From Colwellia sp. (lineage in GTDB: Bacteria; Pseudomonadota; Gammaproteobacteria; Enterobacterales; Alteromonadaceae), in contig NVWU01000008.1 of NCBI GenBank assembly GCA_002733765.1, positions 62,001 through 126,000 on the forward strand: DNA of 64,000 nucleotides, given 5' to 3'. Positions within the stretch are counted from its first letter, which is position 1. Each line of letters opens with the position of its first letter. Positions 50,866 to 59,987 of this stretch are shown here, in pieces. Position numbers and translations under genes: made by a program. The notes below the pieces were generated by a model. That model saw nothing but the letters and a program-made list of their open reading frames with translations. It had not been told where the DNA came from and made no database searches.

Positions 50866-50905
50866 AAAAAGCGCCTTGATCTGAATTAACAAATCAAGGC
50901 GCTTT
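50866..50905 (-). terminator. strong terminator of the NapC-fusion cytochrome gene
   Basis: A 13-base perfect stem, AAAGCGCCTTGAT with ATCAAGGCGCTTT, around a 12-base loop, with a T-run on the minus strand. It lies 68 bases after the stop codon. Confidence 0.88.
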
Positions 50906-50972: not shown

Positions 50973-52775
50973 TTACTGTTTAACCGCATTCACTTCAGCT
51001 TCATCATTATCAAGCGCTAGCTTGTAACCAAATGAAACATGGTGATAACGAGCACTTGAGTAATCGTCATGGATAGCAAAGCCAAAGTTATATACTTTAC
51101 CGGCTTCAATACTAACATCGCCTGCTTTATCTGATTTAAGTTTACGCTTAACAATCACAGACCAAGTACCATTTTTAAGTGAAGCTTCAACAGTTGCGCC
51201 CACGCCTTTGTGCATATCGCGTTCTGCCAAAATTTGACCATCTTCTACTTCACCTGTACCTGATTTATAGCGAACAACATCCATAAATTGATTCGCCGTT
51301 TGTGCTGCATCAATTTCGCTTTGATCTTTAAGCTTATCCCAACCACCTAGCGCTTTACCACCACGACCTTTAAGCTCTAACTTAGTACGCGATTCTTTAA
51401 GATACTTAGTAACACCTGTACCTGAACCAGTATTAAAGTTAAGACGTTTAGCCAAATCACTACCCTTCAACGTATCAACATCTGGTGCAAATGGCATCGA
51501 ATTAGCATCTGCATGACACGTACCCCAACAACCAGCTCTATCTGCGTATTCAACATCATCAGTTGCTAGCATAAAGGCTAATTTCATTGGGTTTTCTGGG
51601 TCCATTTTACCGCCATCAACAAATGGAACAGCAGCATGTTCACCATCAGCCCAGCTAAATCTTAAATATAAATTTTCAGCATCGTGAGTTGAATCAATAG
51701 TGACATCGATATAACCACGTTTTCCAGGGATAACATTAGGTTCAAGCTTCTTATCACTTTCACCTGACACAATATTGTTGCCAATATCCGCTATCTCTTC
51801 ACCATGACACTCAATACAACGATCACCTTTAGTAAAGGCTCGTTTACCACCATGTCTACGACCTAAAATCCATTCAATAGAAGCCGTACCAGGATAGAAA
51901 ACACCAATATCTTTTGAACTTGCTTTACTCCAATCAACATTAATATTACTTGCCGCAGGTGAAGGCCCTTTCGCCGGCTTGCTTGTCGTTGCATTACTAG
52001 CAACAACATTAGCCAGTGCTTCTTTAACCGCAGCTGCTATTTTTTGTTCAGTTTTTTCTTTTTCAGCCATTTTTTCTGCTTTGGCTTTCGCAGCAGCTGC
52101 CGCTTCTTTCGCTTCAATACGTGCTAAACCATCGCGATAAGCTTGTGGCACTTCACGAATATAATCTGGATTCGGTGCTTCTAACTTTTCTAATGCTTCA
52201 TCAGAAAGTTTGTCGCGTACATTATTATGCGCGATACCTTTATGACAATCGATACAGGTTTGTCCGGTTTCAAAAGCATTTAAATGTTGTTTACGCGCAC
52301 GAGGTTTTTGAAACTCAGGATTCATCGATTCAAAATTGTGACAGTTACGACATTCTCTTGAATCAGTTGACTTCATTGCATGCCAAACACTTTGCGCTAA
52401 TTCAAATCGGTGCTCATTAAATTTTTCTTTGGTATCAAGCTTACCTGTTAACCAAGAAAAAACTTCTTTTGACGCTTGAATTTTCCGAACAACTTTGTGT
52501 ATCCAAGGTTTAGGTACATGACAGTCAGGACAGCCTGCACGAACGCCAGTACGATTAGCAAAGTGAATTGTGGGTTTGTATTCTTGATAAACATTGTCTT
52601 CCATTTCATGACAACCAATACAGAACTCTGTAGTGTTTGTTGCTTCCATTGCCGTATTAAAACCACCCCAAAAGATAATACCGATAATAAAGAAAATAAC
52701 GGCGCCAGAAACGGTAGTACCCAGTATTAGTCGACGTGACCAGAAACTCGGTTTTGTAAATGTGTTATTTGTCAT
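50973..52775 (-). CDS. NapC/NirT-type tetrahaem cytochrome fused to a haem-binding dehydrogenase-like domain
   Basis: The 600-residue protein starts with a NapC/NirT module: one membrane anchor (about 16-40) and four haem motifs, CIGCH (52-56), CPDCH (82-86), CRNCH (142-146) and CIDCH (174-178). NapC/NirT proteins take electrons from quinol and pass them to periplasmic reductases. A long Ala/Lys/Glu helix (about 212-262) and a Pro/Ser linker follow. The C-terminal domain (285-590) has a CIECH motif (320-324), a CX3CH motif CWGTCH (416-421), and beta segments resembling the gamma-subunit (EB_dh) haem-binding domain of ethylbenzene/DMSO-type dehydrogenases. Next to nirS, it is the likely quinol-to-nitrite electron donor. 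Confidence 0.85.
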   Translation of the reverse strand: MTNNTFTKPSFWSRRLILGTTVSGAVIFFIIGIIFWGGFNTAMEATNTTEFCIGCHEMEDNVYQEYKPTIHFANRTGVRAGCPDCHVPKPWIHKVVRKIQASKEVFSWLTGKLDTKEKFNEHRFELAQSVWHAMKSTDSRECRNCHNFESMNPEFQKPRARKQHLNAFETGQTCIDCHKGIAHNNVRDKLSDEALEKLEAPNPDYIREVPQAYRDGLARIEAKEAAAAAKAKAEKMAEKEKTEQKIAAAVKEALANVVASNATTSKPAKGPSPAASNINVDWSKASSKDIGVFYPGTASIEWILGRRHGGKRAFTKGDRCIECHGEEIADIGNNIVSGESDKKLEPNVIPGKRGYIDVTIDSTHDAENLYLRFSWADGEHAAVPFVDGGKMDPENPMKLAFMLATDDVEYADRAGCWGTCHADANSMPFAPDVDTLKGSDLAKRLNFNTGSGTGVTKYLKESRTKLELKGRGGKALGGWDKLKDQSEIDAAQTANQFMDVVRYKSGTGEVEDGQILAERDMHKGVGATVEASLKNGTWSVIVKRKLKSDKAGDVSIEAGKVYNFGFAIHDDYSSARYHHVSFGYKLALDNDEAEVNAVKQ

Positions 52776-52910: not shown

Positions 52911-52941
52911 CAAAAAAAGGACATGACATCAGCCATGTCCT
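52911..52941 (-). terminator. terminator of nirS
   Basis: AGGACATG pairs with CATGTCCT around an 8-base loop and is followed by TTTTTTTG on the minus strand. It separates nirS from the downstream fusion-cytochrome gene, which therefore needs read-through or its own promoter. Confidence 0.85.
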
Positions 52942-52996
52942 CAGTTGTAAATAAAGCTAATCAGTAATGATTAAACTTTAGACTTAAGCGTTTAAC

Positions 52997-54625
52997 TTAA
53001 GTTTTATGGTTTGAACGGTTAAACACGTTAAACTTACCTGTTGGTGTAGTTAAGCCTTTAATACGTGCTTTTTCTTTAAGCGTTTTGGCATCATATACTA
53101 CGATTTCACCCGTTGGATTTTTCGCATCTTTACGGTTCCAAACTGAAACCCAAACTTCAGTTCCGTCGTTGTTAAATTCCATGTGTAAAGCAGCTTTACC
53201 TGGCTCAGTTGTTACACGAATCGTTTTAACAATTTCATGAGTAACTTTGTCAAATACTTGCACAGATTGCTGTATTTCAGGTTCAGGATGCTTAAGTTGA
53301 TCAGCCCAAACATATTGTGACGTTTCATGTGTACGGATAAAAACACCTGCACCATCTGTTTCAACTTCATAACAAAGTTTCCACGCTTGATCCGGGTGAC
53401 CCATAGGATCGTTACCCCAAACAGACACTAGACCAACACCTAAGTGAGTTGTACCCGCAACAGGACCACATTTTTCATCAATCCAGTTAGCGCCAGGACC
53501 AGGATGTGGTAAAGAATCAACATCGATCATCGCTTCTAACTTACGTTCTATCGTATCGATAACAACCATTTTGTTTGACGCATTTGCGGCAATTTGGAAG
53601 TAACGACCTGAAGGGTCGAAGAAACCATCATGTAAGAATTCTGCTGAAGCAATGCTCGTAATTGTTAAGTTATCTAAATCGGTATAATCAACTTGTAACA
53701 TTTGACCCGTTTCTTTAACAGCAACGATAAATGAAGATGTTAGAGGCGAAGTGTAAATTGCAGCTACACGTGCTTCGTTGATGAATTCACCTTTAGTATT
53801 GTAACCACGAGTAGAGACAACTTTAAGTGGATTTAACGTTACCGCATCCATGATAACGAAATGCGCAGGCCAGTAACCACCAGCAATTACGTATTTTCCG
53901 TCACCAGAAACTGCAATATCACGTGCGTCATAAGCCATTTTAGTTTCAGCAACTAACATTTTATCAGGTGTTTGCCATAAATCGATTTTGTTAACTTTAC
54001 CGTCACGACCAATGGTGTACCAAAAACGTCCAACATCTTTTGCATGTTCAACTTTATGGTGCTCAGTACCTTTAATTACATGTACTGCGTAACCTGTATC
54101 GATATGAGTGACAATTTTTTTAGTATCACCATCGATAATTGCCGCAGTACCTGCGTCACGTTCGATAACAACGAAGAAGTTTTTCCAGTTTAAACCGTGC
54201 ATTGGTTTAGTTGGGTAGTCTTTTGGTGCAACATATTCTTTAGTGTAAGAACGCATTTGCTCTAAAGACATTTCTGGTGGAATAGGTGGTTCCATTTGAA
54301 TGAACGTTGCCATGTTTGAAATTTCTTGTTTAGTAAACAAGTCATCAAAGTTGTTCATGCCGCCTTCAGTACCTAAAGAAATAATTTTCTCTAAACGCTT
54401 CTGGCCTTTTTTCATTGTGCTTTTGGGTTCTAAGTTTTTGCCTGTAGCGCCTTTACGCAAAGTACCATGACAACCAGCACAGCGTTGGAAGTATTGTAAT
54501 TTTGCTTTTTCATAATCAGCTTCAGCCAACGTTGGTTCTGCCGCTGATACTGACATGCTAAAACCGCTAACTGCCATGCCAATAGCTAAACCAAGTGCTG
54601 AAAGACTGTATTTAATATTTCTCAT
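52997..54625 (-). CDS. nirS: cytochrome cd1 nitrite reductase NirS
   Basis: NirS reduces nitrite to nitric oxide in the periplasm, the defining step of denitrification. A signal peptide (cleavage after about residue 28, VSAAEP) precedes the cytochrome c domain with C49-A-G-C52-H53. The eight-bladed d1-haem propeller fills the rest. Catalytic histidines are recognisable in LPHPGPGANW and GTTHLGVGL, and the proximal ligand in DTGYAVHVIK. The length of 542 is normal. Two FNR-like sites lie upstream (54745 and 54794). The assembly genes are on the other strand from 58276 on. Confidence 0.97.
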   Translation of the reverse strand: MRNIKYSLSALGLAIGMAVSGFSMSVSAAEPTLAEADYEKAKLQYFQRCAGCHGTLRKGATGKNLEPKSTMKKGQKRLEKIISLGTEGGMNNFDDLFTKQEISNMATFIQMEPPIPPEMSLEQMRSYTKEYVAPKDYPTKPMHGLNWKNFFVVIERDAGTAAIIDGDTKKIVTHIDTGYAVHVIKGTEHHKVEHAKDVGRFWYTIGRDGKVNKIDLWQTPDKMLVAETKMAYDARDIAVSGDGKYVIAGGYWPAHFVIMDAVTLNPLKVVSTRGYNTKGEFINEARVAAIYTSPLTSSFIVAVKETGQMLQVDYTDLDNLTITSIASAEFLHDGFFDPSGRYFQIAANASNKMVVIDTIERKLEAMIDVDSLPHPGPGANWIDEKCGPVAGTTHLGVGLVSVWGNDPMGHPDQAWKLCYEVETDGAGVFIRTHETSQYVWADQLKHPEPEIQQSVQVFDKVTHEIVKTIRVTTEPGKAALHMEFNNDGTEVWVSVWNRKDAKNPTGEIVVYDAKTLKEKARIKGLTTPTGKFNVFNRSNHKT

Positions 54626-54744: not shown

Positions 54745-54758
54745 CTGATTCAGATCAA
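54745..54758. promoter_or_regulatory. FNR/Dnr-like palindrome on the nirS side
   Basis: CTGAT-TCAG-ATCAA matches TTGAT-N4-ATCAA at nine of ten positions, 120 bases upstream of the nirS start. FNR/CRP-family regulators that respond to low oxygen (FNR) or NO (Dnr, NnrR) bind this pattern. The base at position one cannot tell which regulator is used. Confidence 0.7.
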
Positions 54759-54793: not shown

Positions 54794-54807
54794 TTGATCA
54801 AGGTCAA
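54794..54807. promoter_or_regulatory. FNR/Dnr-like palindrome on the hemerythrin side
   Basis: TTGAT-CAAG-GTCAA matches TTGAT-N4-ATCAA at nine of ten positions, 129 bases before the hemerythrin start. With the site at 54745 it forms a nearly symmetric pair in the 310-base divergent region. Confidence 0.65.
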
Positions 54808-54935: not shown

Positions 54936-55502
54936 ATGAACAAACGTACTAAATCTTTTATTTACGCCATGGCAATAGGTCTTATTATTGTCATTATATT
55001 TCTTGGCTTTTTATCGAGTTTCAGTAACCCTGTCTCTTGGCTATTAATTGGTGCTTTATTTCTTATTCCCATTTTTTATAAAAAGTCAGAACAGTCTAAT
55101 CAAATTCAATGGAAGGATGAGTATAGTGTGGGGATTGCCCATATAGATCAAGATCATAAAAAACTAATTAACTTATTAAATAAATTTACTGTTGCCTATG
55201 ATCACGCCATGAGTGAAGAGTTTGAAAAAGAAGCACTGAATGCGCTAATTGATTACACTAAATATCACTTTAAACGAGAAGAAAAAATGATGCGTGACAA
55301 TGATTACCCTGATTTTATTGCTCATCAAGCCAAGCATAAAGAAATGATTGACCAGGTAAATAGCTTTGTCGATTTATATAATGACAAAGGTCACGATGCC
55401 TTAAAAGATATTAGCGAATTTTTAACTGTGTGGTTAATTAGCCATATTAATGGTACAGATAAAGAATATAGCCAATACCTGAATGATCGTGGCATAAAAT
55501 AG
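54936..55502 (+). CDS. membrane-anchored bacteriohemerythrin
   Basis: The C-terminal hemerythrin domain (about 55-188) keeps all seven diiron ligands: H69 and H74 (HIDQDH), H111 and E115 (HFKREE), H130 and H134 (HQAKH), H170 with D175 (HINGTD). Two hydrophobic segments (about 8-28 and 32-48) at the N-terminus place the domain on the cytosolic side of the membrane. Hemerythrins bind O2 and also react with NO. Divergent to nirS with a shared regulatory region, it may guard haem d1 enzymes or the cytosol from O2 or NO. AGGAAGT precedes the ATG. Confidence 0.88.
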   Translation: MNKRTKSFIYAMAIGLIIVIIFLGFLSSFSNPVSWLLIGALFLIPIFYKKSEQSNQIQWKDEYSVGIAHIDQDHKKLINLLNKFTVAYDHAMSEEFEKEALNALIDYTKYHFKREEKMMRDNDYPDFIAHQAKHKEMIDQVNSFVDLYNDKGHDALKDISEFLTVWLISHINGTDKEYSQYLNDRGIK

Positions 55503-55700: not shown

Positions 55701-57926
55701 CTACCAAGCATATTTTAGTTGCAGCGAGGCATTAACACCTGGCGCAGCTAAGGTTGCTAATAGCGGATCACTTGCTGTAAAACCATTAACATCAGACCAA
55801 CGCCAATACTGGCGATCGGTAAGGTTATTAACCGCTGCAGCTAAGGTTAATTGCTCATTAAAGTGATAGTTGGCAATCAAATCAAATGTGGCATAGCCTT
55901 TAGTTGTGGCCAACTGGGTTTCAGCGTCTCCCGCATTTGGATCGTCAATATCTGACTTAGCATCAACAATATTGGCATTCAACGCAACAGAAACACTTTC
56001 ATTGGCGCTTAACCATTGCACCCCTAATAAAGCATGATTAGGTTCCATTTCATTTAATGGCTGATCAGTTTCCTTATTTTCACCTTTACTCCAAAACATA
56101 TTCACATAAGTAGTAATGCTATCGCTATCGGTTAGTAAGCTATCAAAATGGCCCTGATAGCTTAACTCAAGCCCATAAATTTCTGCACTATTTATATTTT
56201 GCGATTGGAAGATCACTCGCCCAACGGTTGGATCAAAACCTAAATTCACTTTTGTTTGAATAAAATCGTGGTAATCATTATAGAAAGCCACTAAATCAAT
56301 TTTGTGCTGAGTACCGCTATAGTTGTAACCAATTTCATAACCATCGGTGCTTTCTGATTTTAAATCAGGGTTGGGTATCGCCCGTACTTTAAACAAGGGA
56401 ACATCTAAACCAATATTGGCATCTTCAAAAGGCGGCGCTCTAAAACCTTTCGCATATTGCGCATAAAGTTGATTTTCGCTATTTACTTTATATACCACGC
56501 CTAACTTAGGTGACACACTATCTTCACTAATATTTACCACGGTAGTGGTTGGGTTATCTGCTAAATAAATAGCGTCAGGTTGGGGAGTTAATTTATATTT
56601 GTCGTAGCGTATTGCTGGAATAATGGTAATGGCTGTACCGTCAATGCTAATTTCATCATTAATGTAAACACCAAACTCTTCAACCTCTGAAATAGGAAAG
56701 TCTCTTAGTGGAAATTCTTCTGATAAAATATTATTGGTTGAGTCGCCTGTCGCAATAGTCGTTTTTAGGCCATGGCGTAATTCTTTAATTTTATTTTTGC
56801 TAAACTCGACACCATAACCAATGTGTTGCGTCGTAAATTTTGAGTTGATATTAGTATATAAGTTAGCTCTTAACCCTTGTGTTTTTTGTTCAAAGAAAAA
56901 ATCTCTATCGTAAAGATATTCCTGACCTTGAGCGGTTCTTCTTTCATCAGTTAATTGTTCGGTTTCAGTTTTTTGATCATAATAGCGAATAACGCCTCCT
57001 TCTAACCAAAAGGCATCAAGCACAAAATCATAACTCACTACAAAGTTTTCTCGCTTGGTTTCATCATCTCCTAATAACAAAGAGGTTGATTTAAAACGTC
57101 CCAAACCTAAAGTCGATTGTAAATCTGTTTGTGCTGAACGCTTAAAGTAATCATAACTAAAGCTGAGTACTTGGTTATCAGATATTTCATAAAAAGATTT
57201 AACTAAAAATGCCTGAGTTTCATTGTCCTGAACATCTGTTGCTATATCACTTGACATATTACGGTCAAACTCATGTCCTTTTCGCAGCGAGGCTGAAATA
57301 AGTACGCTTGATGATTCATAACCAAAAACAGAATTCACTGATACTGACTTACTGTCGTCAACAGAATAATAACCAGCCTTAAGACCTAGATAAAAATCAT
57401 TATCCGTTTGTCTTAATAGATCTATTGGCTTTTTAGTGATAAATGATACAACACCACCAATAGCGTCACTACCATAGGTACTTGATGCTGGGCCACGAAG
57501 AATTTCAACTTGTTTGATCAAGTCAGGGTCAATATAATTTCGACCTGAGTTGGAATAGCTACCAATATTAAATTGATCAGCGACAGGTACACCATCAATT
57601 TCTGTCGCGATACGATTGCCAGAAATACCCCTGATGGCAATGCTAGAGTTACCAAATCGACTACCTGAATTAACAACATTAACACCCACTTCATAACGCA
57701 ATAAATCGGCAATATCATGTACTAATTGTTTATCTATTAAGTCGCTATTAATCACAGATACCGCACCGACAACATCTTGTACTTTGCGTGGTGTTTTACC
57801 AATAACAACCAAGGTTTCAATGTTTTCATCAATGCCTTGGTGAACAATATCATCTTCGGCGACACTATAAGTGCTAGGTAATAACACACTAGCTAATGCC
57901 ACGGCTAATAACGATTTTTTAAACAT
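55701..57926 (-). CDS. TonB-dependent receptor, haem/haemoglobin type
   Basis: The 741-residue outer-membrane receptor has a signal peptide (about 1-23, cleaved near SVAED). A TonB-box-like ETLVVIGK follows, then a plug with GVNVVNSGSRFGNSSIAIRG and VEILRGPASSTYGSDAIGGV, and a 22-strand barrel ending in LQLKYAW. The barrel signature YAQYAKGFRAPPFEDANIGL resembles haem, haemoglobin and transferrin receptors. No Fur box was seen, but two FNR-like palindromes occur upstream. Placement opposite the d1-haem genes suggests uptake of haem or iron to feed NirS and cytochrome assembly. Confidence 0.85.
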   Translation of the reverse strand: MFKKSLLAVALASVLLPSTYSVAEDDIVHQGIDENIETLVVIGKTPRKVQDVVGAVSVINSDLIDKQLVHDIADLLRYEVGVNVVNSGSRFGNSSIAIRGISGNRIATEIDGVPVADQFNIGSYSNSGRNYIDPDLIKQVEILRGPASSTYGSDAIGGVVSFITKKPIDLLRQTDNDFYLGLKAGYYSVDDSKSVSVNSVFGYESSSVLISASLRKGHEFDRNMSSDIATDVQDNETQAFLVKSFYEISDNQVLSFSYDYFKRSAQTDLQSTLGLGRFKSTSLLLGDDETKRENFVVSYDFVLDAFWLEGGVIRYYDQKTETEQLTDERRTAQGQEYLYDRDFFFEQKTQGLRANLYTNINSKFTTQHIGYGVEFSKNKIKELRHGLKTTIATGDSTNNILSEEFPLRDFPISEVEEFGVYINDEISIDGTAITIIPAIRYDKYKLTPQPDAIYLADNPTTTVVNISEDSVSPKLGVVYKVNSENQLYAQYAKGFRAPPFEDANIGLDVPLFKVRAIPNPDLKSESTDGYEIGYNYSGTQHKIDLVAFYNDYHDFIQTKVNLGFDPTVGRVIFQSQNINSAEIYGLELSYQGHFDSLLTDSDSITTYVNMFWSKGENKETDQPLNEMEPNHALLGVQWLSANESVSVALNANIVDAKSDIDDPNAGDAETQLATTKGYATFDLIANYHFNEQLTLAAAVNNLTDRQYWRWSDVNGFTASDPLLATLAAPGVNASLQLKYAW

Positions 57927-58275: not shown

Positions 58276-58632
58276 ATGAATTCATCAATAATTAAACGTA
58301 CTTGTCGTATAACAGCAATAATGGCCGTATTTTTTATACTGACCAATCAAAGCTATGCCAGTGAAGAATTCTTATCAAATATACGAAAAGCACAACTAAT
58401 CCACATAGTAAAACAAGATTGCGGATCGTGCCATGGTATGACATTAAAAGGCGGTTTAGGACCAGCTTTATTACCTGAAAACCTTGAAGGAAAACCAATA
58501 CTGTTTTTACAAAATACCATTTTATATGGCCGTACTGGAACTGCCATGCCGCCATGGAAACCCCTATTAACGGAACAAGAAGTATTGTGGATTTCTCAAC
58601 AATTAAAAGCAGGAAAAATAGCTGAACCTTAA
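58276..58632 (+). CDS. nirC: monohaem cytochrome c NirC
   Basis: The 118-residue protein has a signal peptide (about 1-29, cleaved near YASEE), one haem motif C49-G-S-C52-H53, and a likely axial Met91 in TAMPPWKPLLTEQE. Small cytochromes of this type are NirC, which can deliver electrons to NirS or take part in d1-haem maturation. It is the first gene of the assembly operon. A later PPWKPLL motif supports NirC over generic class I cytochromes. Confidence 0.85.
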   Translation: MNSSIIKRTCRITAIMAVFFILTNQSYASEEFLSNIRKAQLIHIVKQDCGSCHGMTLKGGLGPALLPENLEGKPILFLQNTILYGRTGTAMPPWKPLLTEQEVLWISQQLKAGKIAEP

Positions 58633-58745
58633 ATTCTGAAGTAAAGCTTAAAGAGCCAATATAGAACACTAAAAATAAAAAGTAATTGACCAAACATCAC
58701 AACAAAAACGCTGAGCACCGATAAAGCAGCATGAAAGGAATATTG

Positions 58746-59987
58746 ATGAATACTAAATTAATAAAACTAGCGAGCGTTGTAATACTATCTAGTGTTATTA
58801 CCGCTTGCGCTAGTTATACCACTAATAACACAGCGAAAATACCATTACGCGCCACCGGTGATATGGGTGTTGTTATTGAACGCGCCACCGGCCAAGTGCA
58901 AATTGTTAACCATACTAATCAAGTAGTATTAGCCGAAATAGAAGGGCTAGGTGATTTATCGCACGCTTCTATTGTTTATTCACGTGACCAACGTTACGCC
59001 TATGTTTTTGGCCGTGATGGCGGCCTAACTAAAATAGATATTCTTAAAGATAAAATTGCCAAACGGGTAATGCAATCAGGCAACAGTATTGGCGGCGCTA
59101 TTAGCCAAGACGGTAAATTAGTGGCGGTATCAAATTACACACCGGGCGGCGTAAAAGTATTTAACAGTGAAACACTCGAATTAGTCGCTACTATCGACAG
59201 CTCAATTTTGACCACTAAACCTAAAAATAAAGATGGCAGCCCCGTCCGCTCTAAAGTGGTTGGCTTAGTTGATGCGCCAAATAACAAATTTGTTTTTAGC
59301 TTATTTGATAGCCATGAAATTTGGATCGCCGACTTCTCCAATATTGAGAAAAATAAAACGCCTAAGCTAACTAAGTTCACTGATATCGGTTTATTCCCTT
59401 ACGATGCCTTAATCAGCCCTGATGGTCGCTACTATATAGCCGGATTATTTGGTGAAGACGGCATGTCATTACTGGACTTATGGCATATAGAAAAAGGGGT
59501 TAAACGCATTTTACCTAATTACGGTAAAGGTCAACAGAAACTACCTGTTTATAAAATGCCGCATTTAGAAGGTTGGGCAATTGCTGGAGATTACGCTTTT
59601 ATGCCCGCAGTTGGTCAGCATAGTGTCTTAGTGGTAAACACTAAAACATGGCAACAAGTAACCGAAATTCCGGCCCATAGCCAGCCAATATTTGTCATGG
59701 CACAACCTGATAACCGTCAAATATGGGTTAACTTTGCTCATCCTGACAACAACACCATTCAAATATTTAATACCGAAACCTTTGAGTTAGTAAACACCTT
59801 AACGCCAGGACCTGCTGTTTTACACATGGAGTTTACCCCCCGTGGCGAACACGTATGGATGTCAGTACGCGACAGCAATGAAATTCAAATATACGACACC
59901 AAAACACAAACATTACAAAAAACACTTAAATCATCCAGCCCGAGTGGTATTTTTTTCACCAGTCGTGCGCATCAAATAGGCTTGTAA
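58746..59987 (+). CDS. nirF: haem d1 biosynthesis lipoprotein NirF
   Basis: The start is ATG 58746, placed 7-8 bases after AAGGA; the frame is open five codons earlier. The lipobox ITAC ends at C21 (MNTKLIKLASVVILSSVITA), so NirF is anchored in the periplasm. The rest is a WD-like propeller related to the d1 domain of NirS, with GDMGVVIERATGQVQIV, AGDYAFMPAVGQHSV and LHMEFTPRGEHVWMSVRD. NirF binds the d1 precursor in the last steps. It lies 113 bases after nirC. Confidence 0.93.
   Translation: MNTKLIKLASVVILSSVITACASYTTNNTAKIPLRATGDMGVVIERATGQVQIVNHTNQVVLAEIEGLGDLSHASIVYSRDQRYAYVFGRDGGLTKIDILKDKIAKRVMQSGNSIGGAISQDGKLVAVSNYTPGGVKVFNSETLELVATIDSSILTTKPKNKDGSPVRSKVVGLVDAPNNKFVFSLFDSHEIWIADFSNIEKNKTPKLTKFTDIGLFPYDALISPDGRYYIAGLFGEDGMSLLDLWHIEKGVKRILPNYGKGQQKLPVYKMPHLEGWAIAGDYAFMPAVGQHSVLVVNTKTWQQVTEIPAHSQPIFVMAQPDNRQIWVNFAHPDNNTIQIFNTETFELVNTLTPGPAVLHMEFTPRGEHVWMSVRDSNEIQIYDTKTQTLQKTLKSSSPSGIFFTSRAHQIGL

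Follow-up and report, generated by a model that had tools for sequence, protein, structure and literature searches.

The 64,000-nucleotide stretch of Colwellia sp. contig NVWU01000008.1 analysed here (the window) contains, on the minus strand, an open reading frame (50973-52775; 600 residues from its ATG) in which a tetrahaem NapC/NirT domain and a NirB-type EB_dh domain are fused, immediately downstream of nirS. We propose that this NirT-NirB fusion is probably a hexahaem chain that feeds the cytochrome cd1 nitrite reductase NirS with electrons from quinol, a reading that draws on its architecture and conservation, on its co-occurrence with nirS, on the fold of its NirB part and on an unfused nirS-nirT-nirB counterpart. 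Fused NirTB as a kind is already in print; the present form is widespread and little described.

A preliminary description of the frame had recognized a NapC/NirT quinol dehydrogenase joined to an EB_dh-like domain, and Pfam searches bore this architecture out. The N-terminal domain (residues 25-186; 52218-52703) matches PF03264 with an E-value of 6e-73 and 244.7 bits (cut-off 24.1), and both a hydrophobic membrane anchor, read from the sequence (residues ~16-38; 52662-52730), and four CX2CH motifs were found: CIGCH (residues 52-56; 52608-52622), CPDCH (82-86; 52518-52532), CRNCH (142-146; 52338-52352) and CIDCH (174-178; 52242-52256). The fusion scores 262.6 bits with NCBIfam TIGR02161, under the whole-protein cut-off of 310.6; an ordinary NapC is encoded elsewhere in the same genome by a frame of 201 residues. 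TorC was set aside as an identity: the two scores, 249.1 and 162.4 bits, lie below the cut-offs of 478.2 and 455 and concern the NapC part only. The domain search proposed for the C-terminal part (residues 278-600; 50976-51944) matched PF09459 (EB_dh) over two stretches, starting at residue 281, with an E-value of 2e-31 and 110.3 bits (cut-off 33.3). This part carries haem motifs 5, CIECH (320-324; 51804-51818), and 6, the extended CX3CH motif CWGTCH (416-421; 51513-51530), and all six motifs initially listed are thus present.

A structure model of the C-terminal domain was obtained with a predicted local distance difference test (pLDDT) score of 95.6, and its fold matches EbdC and NxrC. The preliminary description had named the lack of a structural match to any haem-binding domain as the result that would tell against it; EbdC is a haem-binding subunit. 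Profile searches did better than single-protein searches against solved structures, which gave no match for the whole chain and weak, unrelated chains only for the C-terminal part. The whole-chain model was poor (mean pLDDT 44, from an alignment of 14 rows), so only the C-terminal model was used and we make no statement about the relative placement of the two domains. They are joined by an Ala/Lys/Glu-rich linker (residues 187-278; 51942-52217), first described as a helical spacer. The Ala/Lys/Glu-rich stretch is indeed there, at about residues 211-257, and is modelled as a helix at low confidence only; a rigid spacer as a general feature did not hold up, the linker being Pro/Ala-rich in locus L069 and in Azospirillum and acidic in L217. 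Across 79 proteins, motifs 4 and 5 lie 125-168 residues apart (median 147), and Ala, Lys, Glu, Gln and Arg together make up 40-66% of the linker; Azospirillum and L217 have shorter spacings of 114 and 106 residues. On this comparison the linker reads as a tether, and a rigid helix may apply to certain lineages only.

The EB_dh part corresponds to the NirB of nirSTB clusters, making the Colwellia protein a NirT-NirB fusion; the 'EB_dh-like' label was right as to family and is here corrected to a kind of protein already in print. Gene order carries most weight in this identification. The separate EB_dh protein of L139 has close homologues in 11 of the 119 genomes of one gammaproteobacterial family, their genes lying directly 3' of a separate NapC/NirT gene in all 11 loci. 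The order is nirS-nirT-nirB in ten of them, all ten with the NirS type of the solved structures (the studied type); in the eleventh, L233, a small cytochrome frame stands between nirS and nirT. L139 itself reads nirS-nirT-nirB-small cytochrome-nirC-nirF, which is reportedly also the order of P. stutzeri nirSTBMCF. The title of a 1991 paper cited in PMC13086519 names nirSTBM. When EB_dh domains were placed in a tree, those linked to nirS, comprising the fused ones and the single NirB row (L139, on a long branch), fell on one side with a support of 89/88, which does not reach the tool's star limit, and five separate proteins paired with NapC fell on the other (support 99/98). A 'nap-linked' label for these five pairs was dropped, as their neighbouring genes are not in keeping with it; the tree grouping stands.

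The neighbouring gene (52997-54625, minus strand) encodes a 542-residue protein that matches PF02239 (E-value 1e-120) and is a true cd1 reductase: it scores 457 bits with a solved NirS, and FLHDG and HLG, which we take to hold the d1 active-site histidines, align to the same residues. It was rejected as NirN on its much lower score, 199 bits, with 6rtd (labelled cytochrome c in its file, and presumably NirN). The placement of the fusion next to nirS, as first described, is therefore correct, and their co-occurrence was surveyed as suggested. In a set of 99 related genomes, that of Colwellia sp. included, 26 hold the fusion (interrupted in G009, split over contigs in G026), and in all 26 nirS adjoins it directly upstream on the same strand. 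When a collection of species genomes was scanned with a C-terminal profile, 323 loci were recovered, of which the best 80 were kept (the named loci). Both domains are in one frame in 78 of these 80 (L059 is split over two frames and L114 is cut by a contig end), and 76 have nirS just upstream, the remaining four starting at or near contig ends. Such recurrence of the fused layout, among relatives and named loci, excludes a chance origin. By record title, the named loci include Colwellia and its relatives, Pseudoalteromonas, Amphritea, Marinobacter, Sedimenticola, Kangiellaceae and alphaproteobacteria; plasmid searches yielded five plasmid records with the fusion, from Ruegeria, Aliiroseovarius and Azospirillum brasilense.

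The association is largely with one type of NirS. Full-length NirS matches in 369 genomes of the class form two groups, the upper of which comprises 25 copies from 24 genomes, scoring at least 844 bits and with 67-77% identity (own copy aside); the next match scores 491 bits (~50%). All 24 genomes also have a C-terminal profile match of fused strength (at least 287 bits, a few split over contigs), and none of the 43 genomes of the class with lower-scoring NirS types only has one. Counting fragments (G386, G192, G415) and judging unfetched members of the 27 fused genomes of the class by frame length, the window NirS type and the fusion occur together in 26 of the 369 genomes, NirS alone in one (G415), and the fusion alone in one (G244), the remaining 341 having neither (Fisher p 1e-37, kinship not corrected); G415 and G244 are each at a contig end. 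The two genes are adjacent on one contig in 24 of the 27 fused genomes, the contigs of G251, G457 and G244 ending there. The fusion and NirS show correlated pairwise distances (Spearman 0.76 across 67 loci, shared ancestry not removed), and in three further fused loci in another order (L217, L219, L220) the window NirS type again adjoins. All solved NirS structures found belong to the other type, with 932 and 818 bits to L151 versus 457 and 432 to the window NirS, and in a NirS tree, whose root is not resolved, a branch of 2.27 with support 100 separates the groups, which had been defined by score. L028, L034, L164, L174 and L180 have NirS frames of 705-789 residues in which the N-terminal part carries a second CXXCH motif.

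In the proposed mechanism, the NirT part, held in the inner membrane, would take electrons from quinol and pass them along its four c-haems, and the NirB part would act as a periplasmic dihaem relay on the linker, delivering them to the NirS encoded just upstream. Fusion would turn an otherwise separate pair into one hexahaem chain, and because NirT and NirB are one chain, nitrite reduction by NirS could use the quinol pool without a diffusing carrier. Quinol oxidation, the direction of electron flow, covalent haem at CX3CH and direct contact with NirS are suggested by what is known of the families. According to the accessible portions of PMC13086519, NirT is required for nitrite reduction in strain ZoBell, NirT is tetrahaem and NirB dihaem, and a fused NirTB is found in Halomonas sp. 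2A. Likewise, the available text of PMC9600427 has a NirT-like protein oxidising quinol in vivo, and that of PMC5845722 describes separate pairs, PcrQ with PcrO and NapC with NapO, carrying electrons to reductases.

Compared by description, the nearest systems are the NirT and NirB of Pseudomonas/Stutzerimonas stutzeri nirSTBM and the Halomonas NirTB, where a tetrahaem NapC-type and a dihaem protein are likewise encoded directly downstream of nirS (PMC13086519, in its accessible part). The Colwellia protein differs from the S. stutzeri pair in being one chain with a ~90-residue linker, and its NirS partner has roughly 50% identity with the studied type. The Azospira suillum PS pairs also combine, by description, a NapC-type quinol dehydrogenase with an EbdC-like dihaem carrier, but they are encoded by separate genes and serve perchlorate and nitrate reductase (PMC5845722, text available in part). 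TorC is similarly a long NapC-type protein with one extra C-terminal haem domain; in Colwellia the added domain is an EB_dh domain. EbdC and NxrC are separate gamma subunits of molybdenum enzymes, whereas the Colwellia domain has two c-haem motifs and a long insertion. Finally, as far as the accessible part of PMC10999283 goes, an electron-transfer cytochrome is also joined within the nirS system of Chloroflexi; there, a cytochrome c551/552 domain is fused to NirS itself, whereas in Colwellia the feeder is fused and NirS is separate.

Several observations weigh against so close a coupling of fusion and reductase. The studied NirS type is mostly without a partner, nirT or nirB being found within 1.5 kb in one (G259) of the 30 best-scoring loci fetched, and the Azospirillum brasilense Sp7 plasmid holds the fusion with that type. 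L233 combines the window NirS type, judged on a 109-residue NirS piece, with separate nirT and nirB. L233 thus speaks against the idea that the window NirS lineage occurs with fused forms alone, which is rejected, and L192 likewise leads to rejection of the idea that the fusion is confined to this lineage. Two of the related genomes, G002 and G019, retain short C-terminal fragments only. In the window, a terminator-like hairpin, possibly an attenuator, separates nirS from the fusion (52917-52942, minus strand; four such sites in the region versus 2.7 expected by shuffling). A diffusing carrier may still act, because the genome has a nirC-like cytochrome and, in three alphaproteobacterial plasmids (L191, L192, L222: nirS, then fused NirT-NirB), a gene for a plastocyanin/azurin-type or copper-binding protein follows 3' of the fusion. 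We advance only tentatively, as a possibility somewhat short of even, the wider proposal that one entire lineage of cytochrome cd1 NirS has a feeder of its own, a single chain with six haems (or eight, as NirT-NirB-NirB, in some species) that connects it directly with the quinol pool. Electrons would then skip the bc1 complex and diffusing carriers, and reductase and feeder would evolve as a unit.

The same small cytochrome and azurin-type genes lend something to another role, in which the fusion mainly activates NirS: its first electrons would switch on the cd1 enzyme from the resting, oxidised state, and the steady flow would be left to soluble c-type cytochromes or azurin. We consider this unlikely: read plainly, the requirement for NirT in ZoBell, as given in the accessible text of PMC13086519, is more than activation would call for. 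The pairing with nirS fits both roles and does not discriminate between them.

Somewhat less probable again is that the CX3CH motif is not a covalent haem site, so that the chain would have five c-haems, or an EB_dh fold keeping an EbdC-like non-covalent b-haem. Among solved structures, the closest in fold are EbdC, which holds a non-covalent b-haem (PMC10654088, in its accessible part), and NxrC, which presumably does so too. However, the motif is C-W-x-x-C-H in all 80 named loci, both Cys and the His being kept; the first Cys was partly selected for, as one of the two peptides used in the search ended in it, and a further set of rows, picked for their motifs, was left out of the argument because its conservation follows from that choice. 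A CX2CH and CX3CH pair was also found in all 12 separate EB_dh proteins fetched after the profile search (L135-L146, with Tyr instead of Trp in L141; from at least 15 genomes of the class with a separate match, G407, G433 and G456 being left out) and in all 11 NirB homologues of the gammaproteobacterial family above. NirB is called dihaem in the available text of PMC13086519 and these relatives hold one motif of each kind, so CX3CH would be the second haem site of published NirB, provided that its motifs equal theirs. Of the loci from the 26 related genomes with the fusion, the first 20 all have CX3CH, and one of these 20 has lost one Cys of haem motif 3. In L006 motif 3 reads CRNFH, the fusion being otherwise intact; L036, which may come from the same genome, lacks this motif as well. 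In the diverged fusion of L217 (5960-7657), haem motif 1 is extended too (CSSTCH).

That the fusion is instead a general, CymA-like periplasmic quinol oxidase serving other reductases or haem d1 maturation, its adjacency to nirS reflecting shared regulation, is improbable: separate EB_dh proteins do adjoin other partners, of MtrA/MtrB type (L136, with NapC), decahaem cytochromes (L141, L145) or proteins with a weak likeness to porins (L135 and L140, with L137 assigned by position and size), but the fused form has nirS beside it in every named locus with upstream sequence, and none of the 43 class genomes with other NirS types only has a match of fused strength.

Returning to the hexahaem feeder, the electron route to cd1 NirS and nitrite build-up in some denitrifiers are still debated, and nirTB has been tied to that question (PMC13086519, accessible part). 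A fusion that occurs in nature argues strongly, on comparative grounds, for NirT and NirB acting as a single unit; it also offers one protein for testing quinol-to-NirS transfer. In the literature searched, which covered few subscription journals, fused NirTB is named in one paper; we found there no description of the EB_dh or tandem form, nor an account of the breadth of the fusion, its near one-to-one link with one NirS lineage or its doubled form, and these last three are what specialists may not have seen.

The doubled form, NirT-NirB-NirB with eight haem motifs and 920-985 residues, occurs in 14 of the 80 named loci (L073, L079, L080, L085, L090, L093, L095, L096, L097, L099, L104, L109, L112, L113), and one of 998 residues in G182. 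Nine doubled proteins were included in the tree. Six of them, one with weak support, have two copies that are each closest to the other; for L097 and L113 first copies pair together and second copies pair together, and L090 follows neither pattern. Because copy pairing differs in this way, doubling or gene conversion probably took place more than once.

Among the separate EB_dh proteins, a dihaem one lies beside DmsE/MtrA-type decahaem genes in L136 (2381-7371, where an MtrB/PioB gene and a separate NapC are also found), L141 (5662-7656) and L145 (5135-7586); such proteins could possibly link the quinol pool with outer-membrane conduits. In L135 (6398-9451), L137 (6173-9013) and L140 (4959-8109), a NapC and EB_dh pair is followed by a protein of ~400 residues that has a single CXXCH and is, we assume, Cyc2-like in shape; two of the three resemble porins weakly, at scores below cut-off.

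As for the surrounding locus, a terminator-like hairpin with a 16-pair stem follows the fusion (50868-50905, minus strand). Upstream of nirS are two boxes with one mismatch each (54745-54758 and 54794-54807, no strand assigned) that resemble those of what we take to be an FNR/DNR-type regulator; the whole window has 19 matches with at most one mismatch to TTGAT-N4-ATCAA versus 5.3 expected by shuffling. Beyond nirS, on the other strand, lie genes for a nirC-like small c-type cytochrome (58276-58632, plus strand; named by position and size) and a nirF-like d1 protein (58731-59987, plus strand; PF02239, named by length and place), with further genes that resemble haem d1 genes annotated in Ruegeria and are named by analogy. 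A hemerythrin-domain protein (54936-55502) and a TonB-dependent receptor (55701-57926) are encoded between nirS and the nirC/nirF pair.
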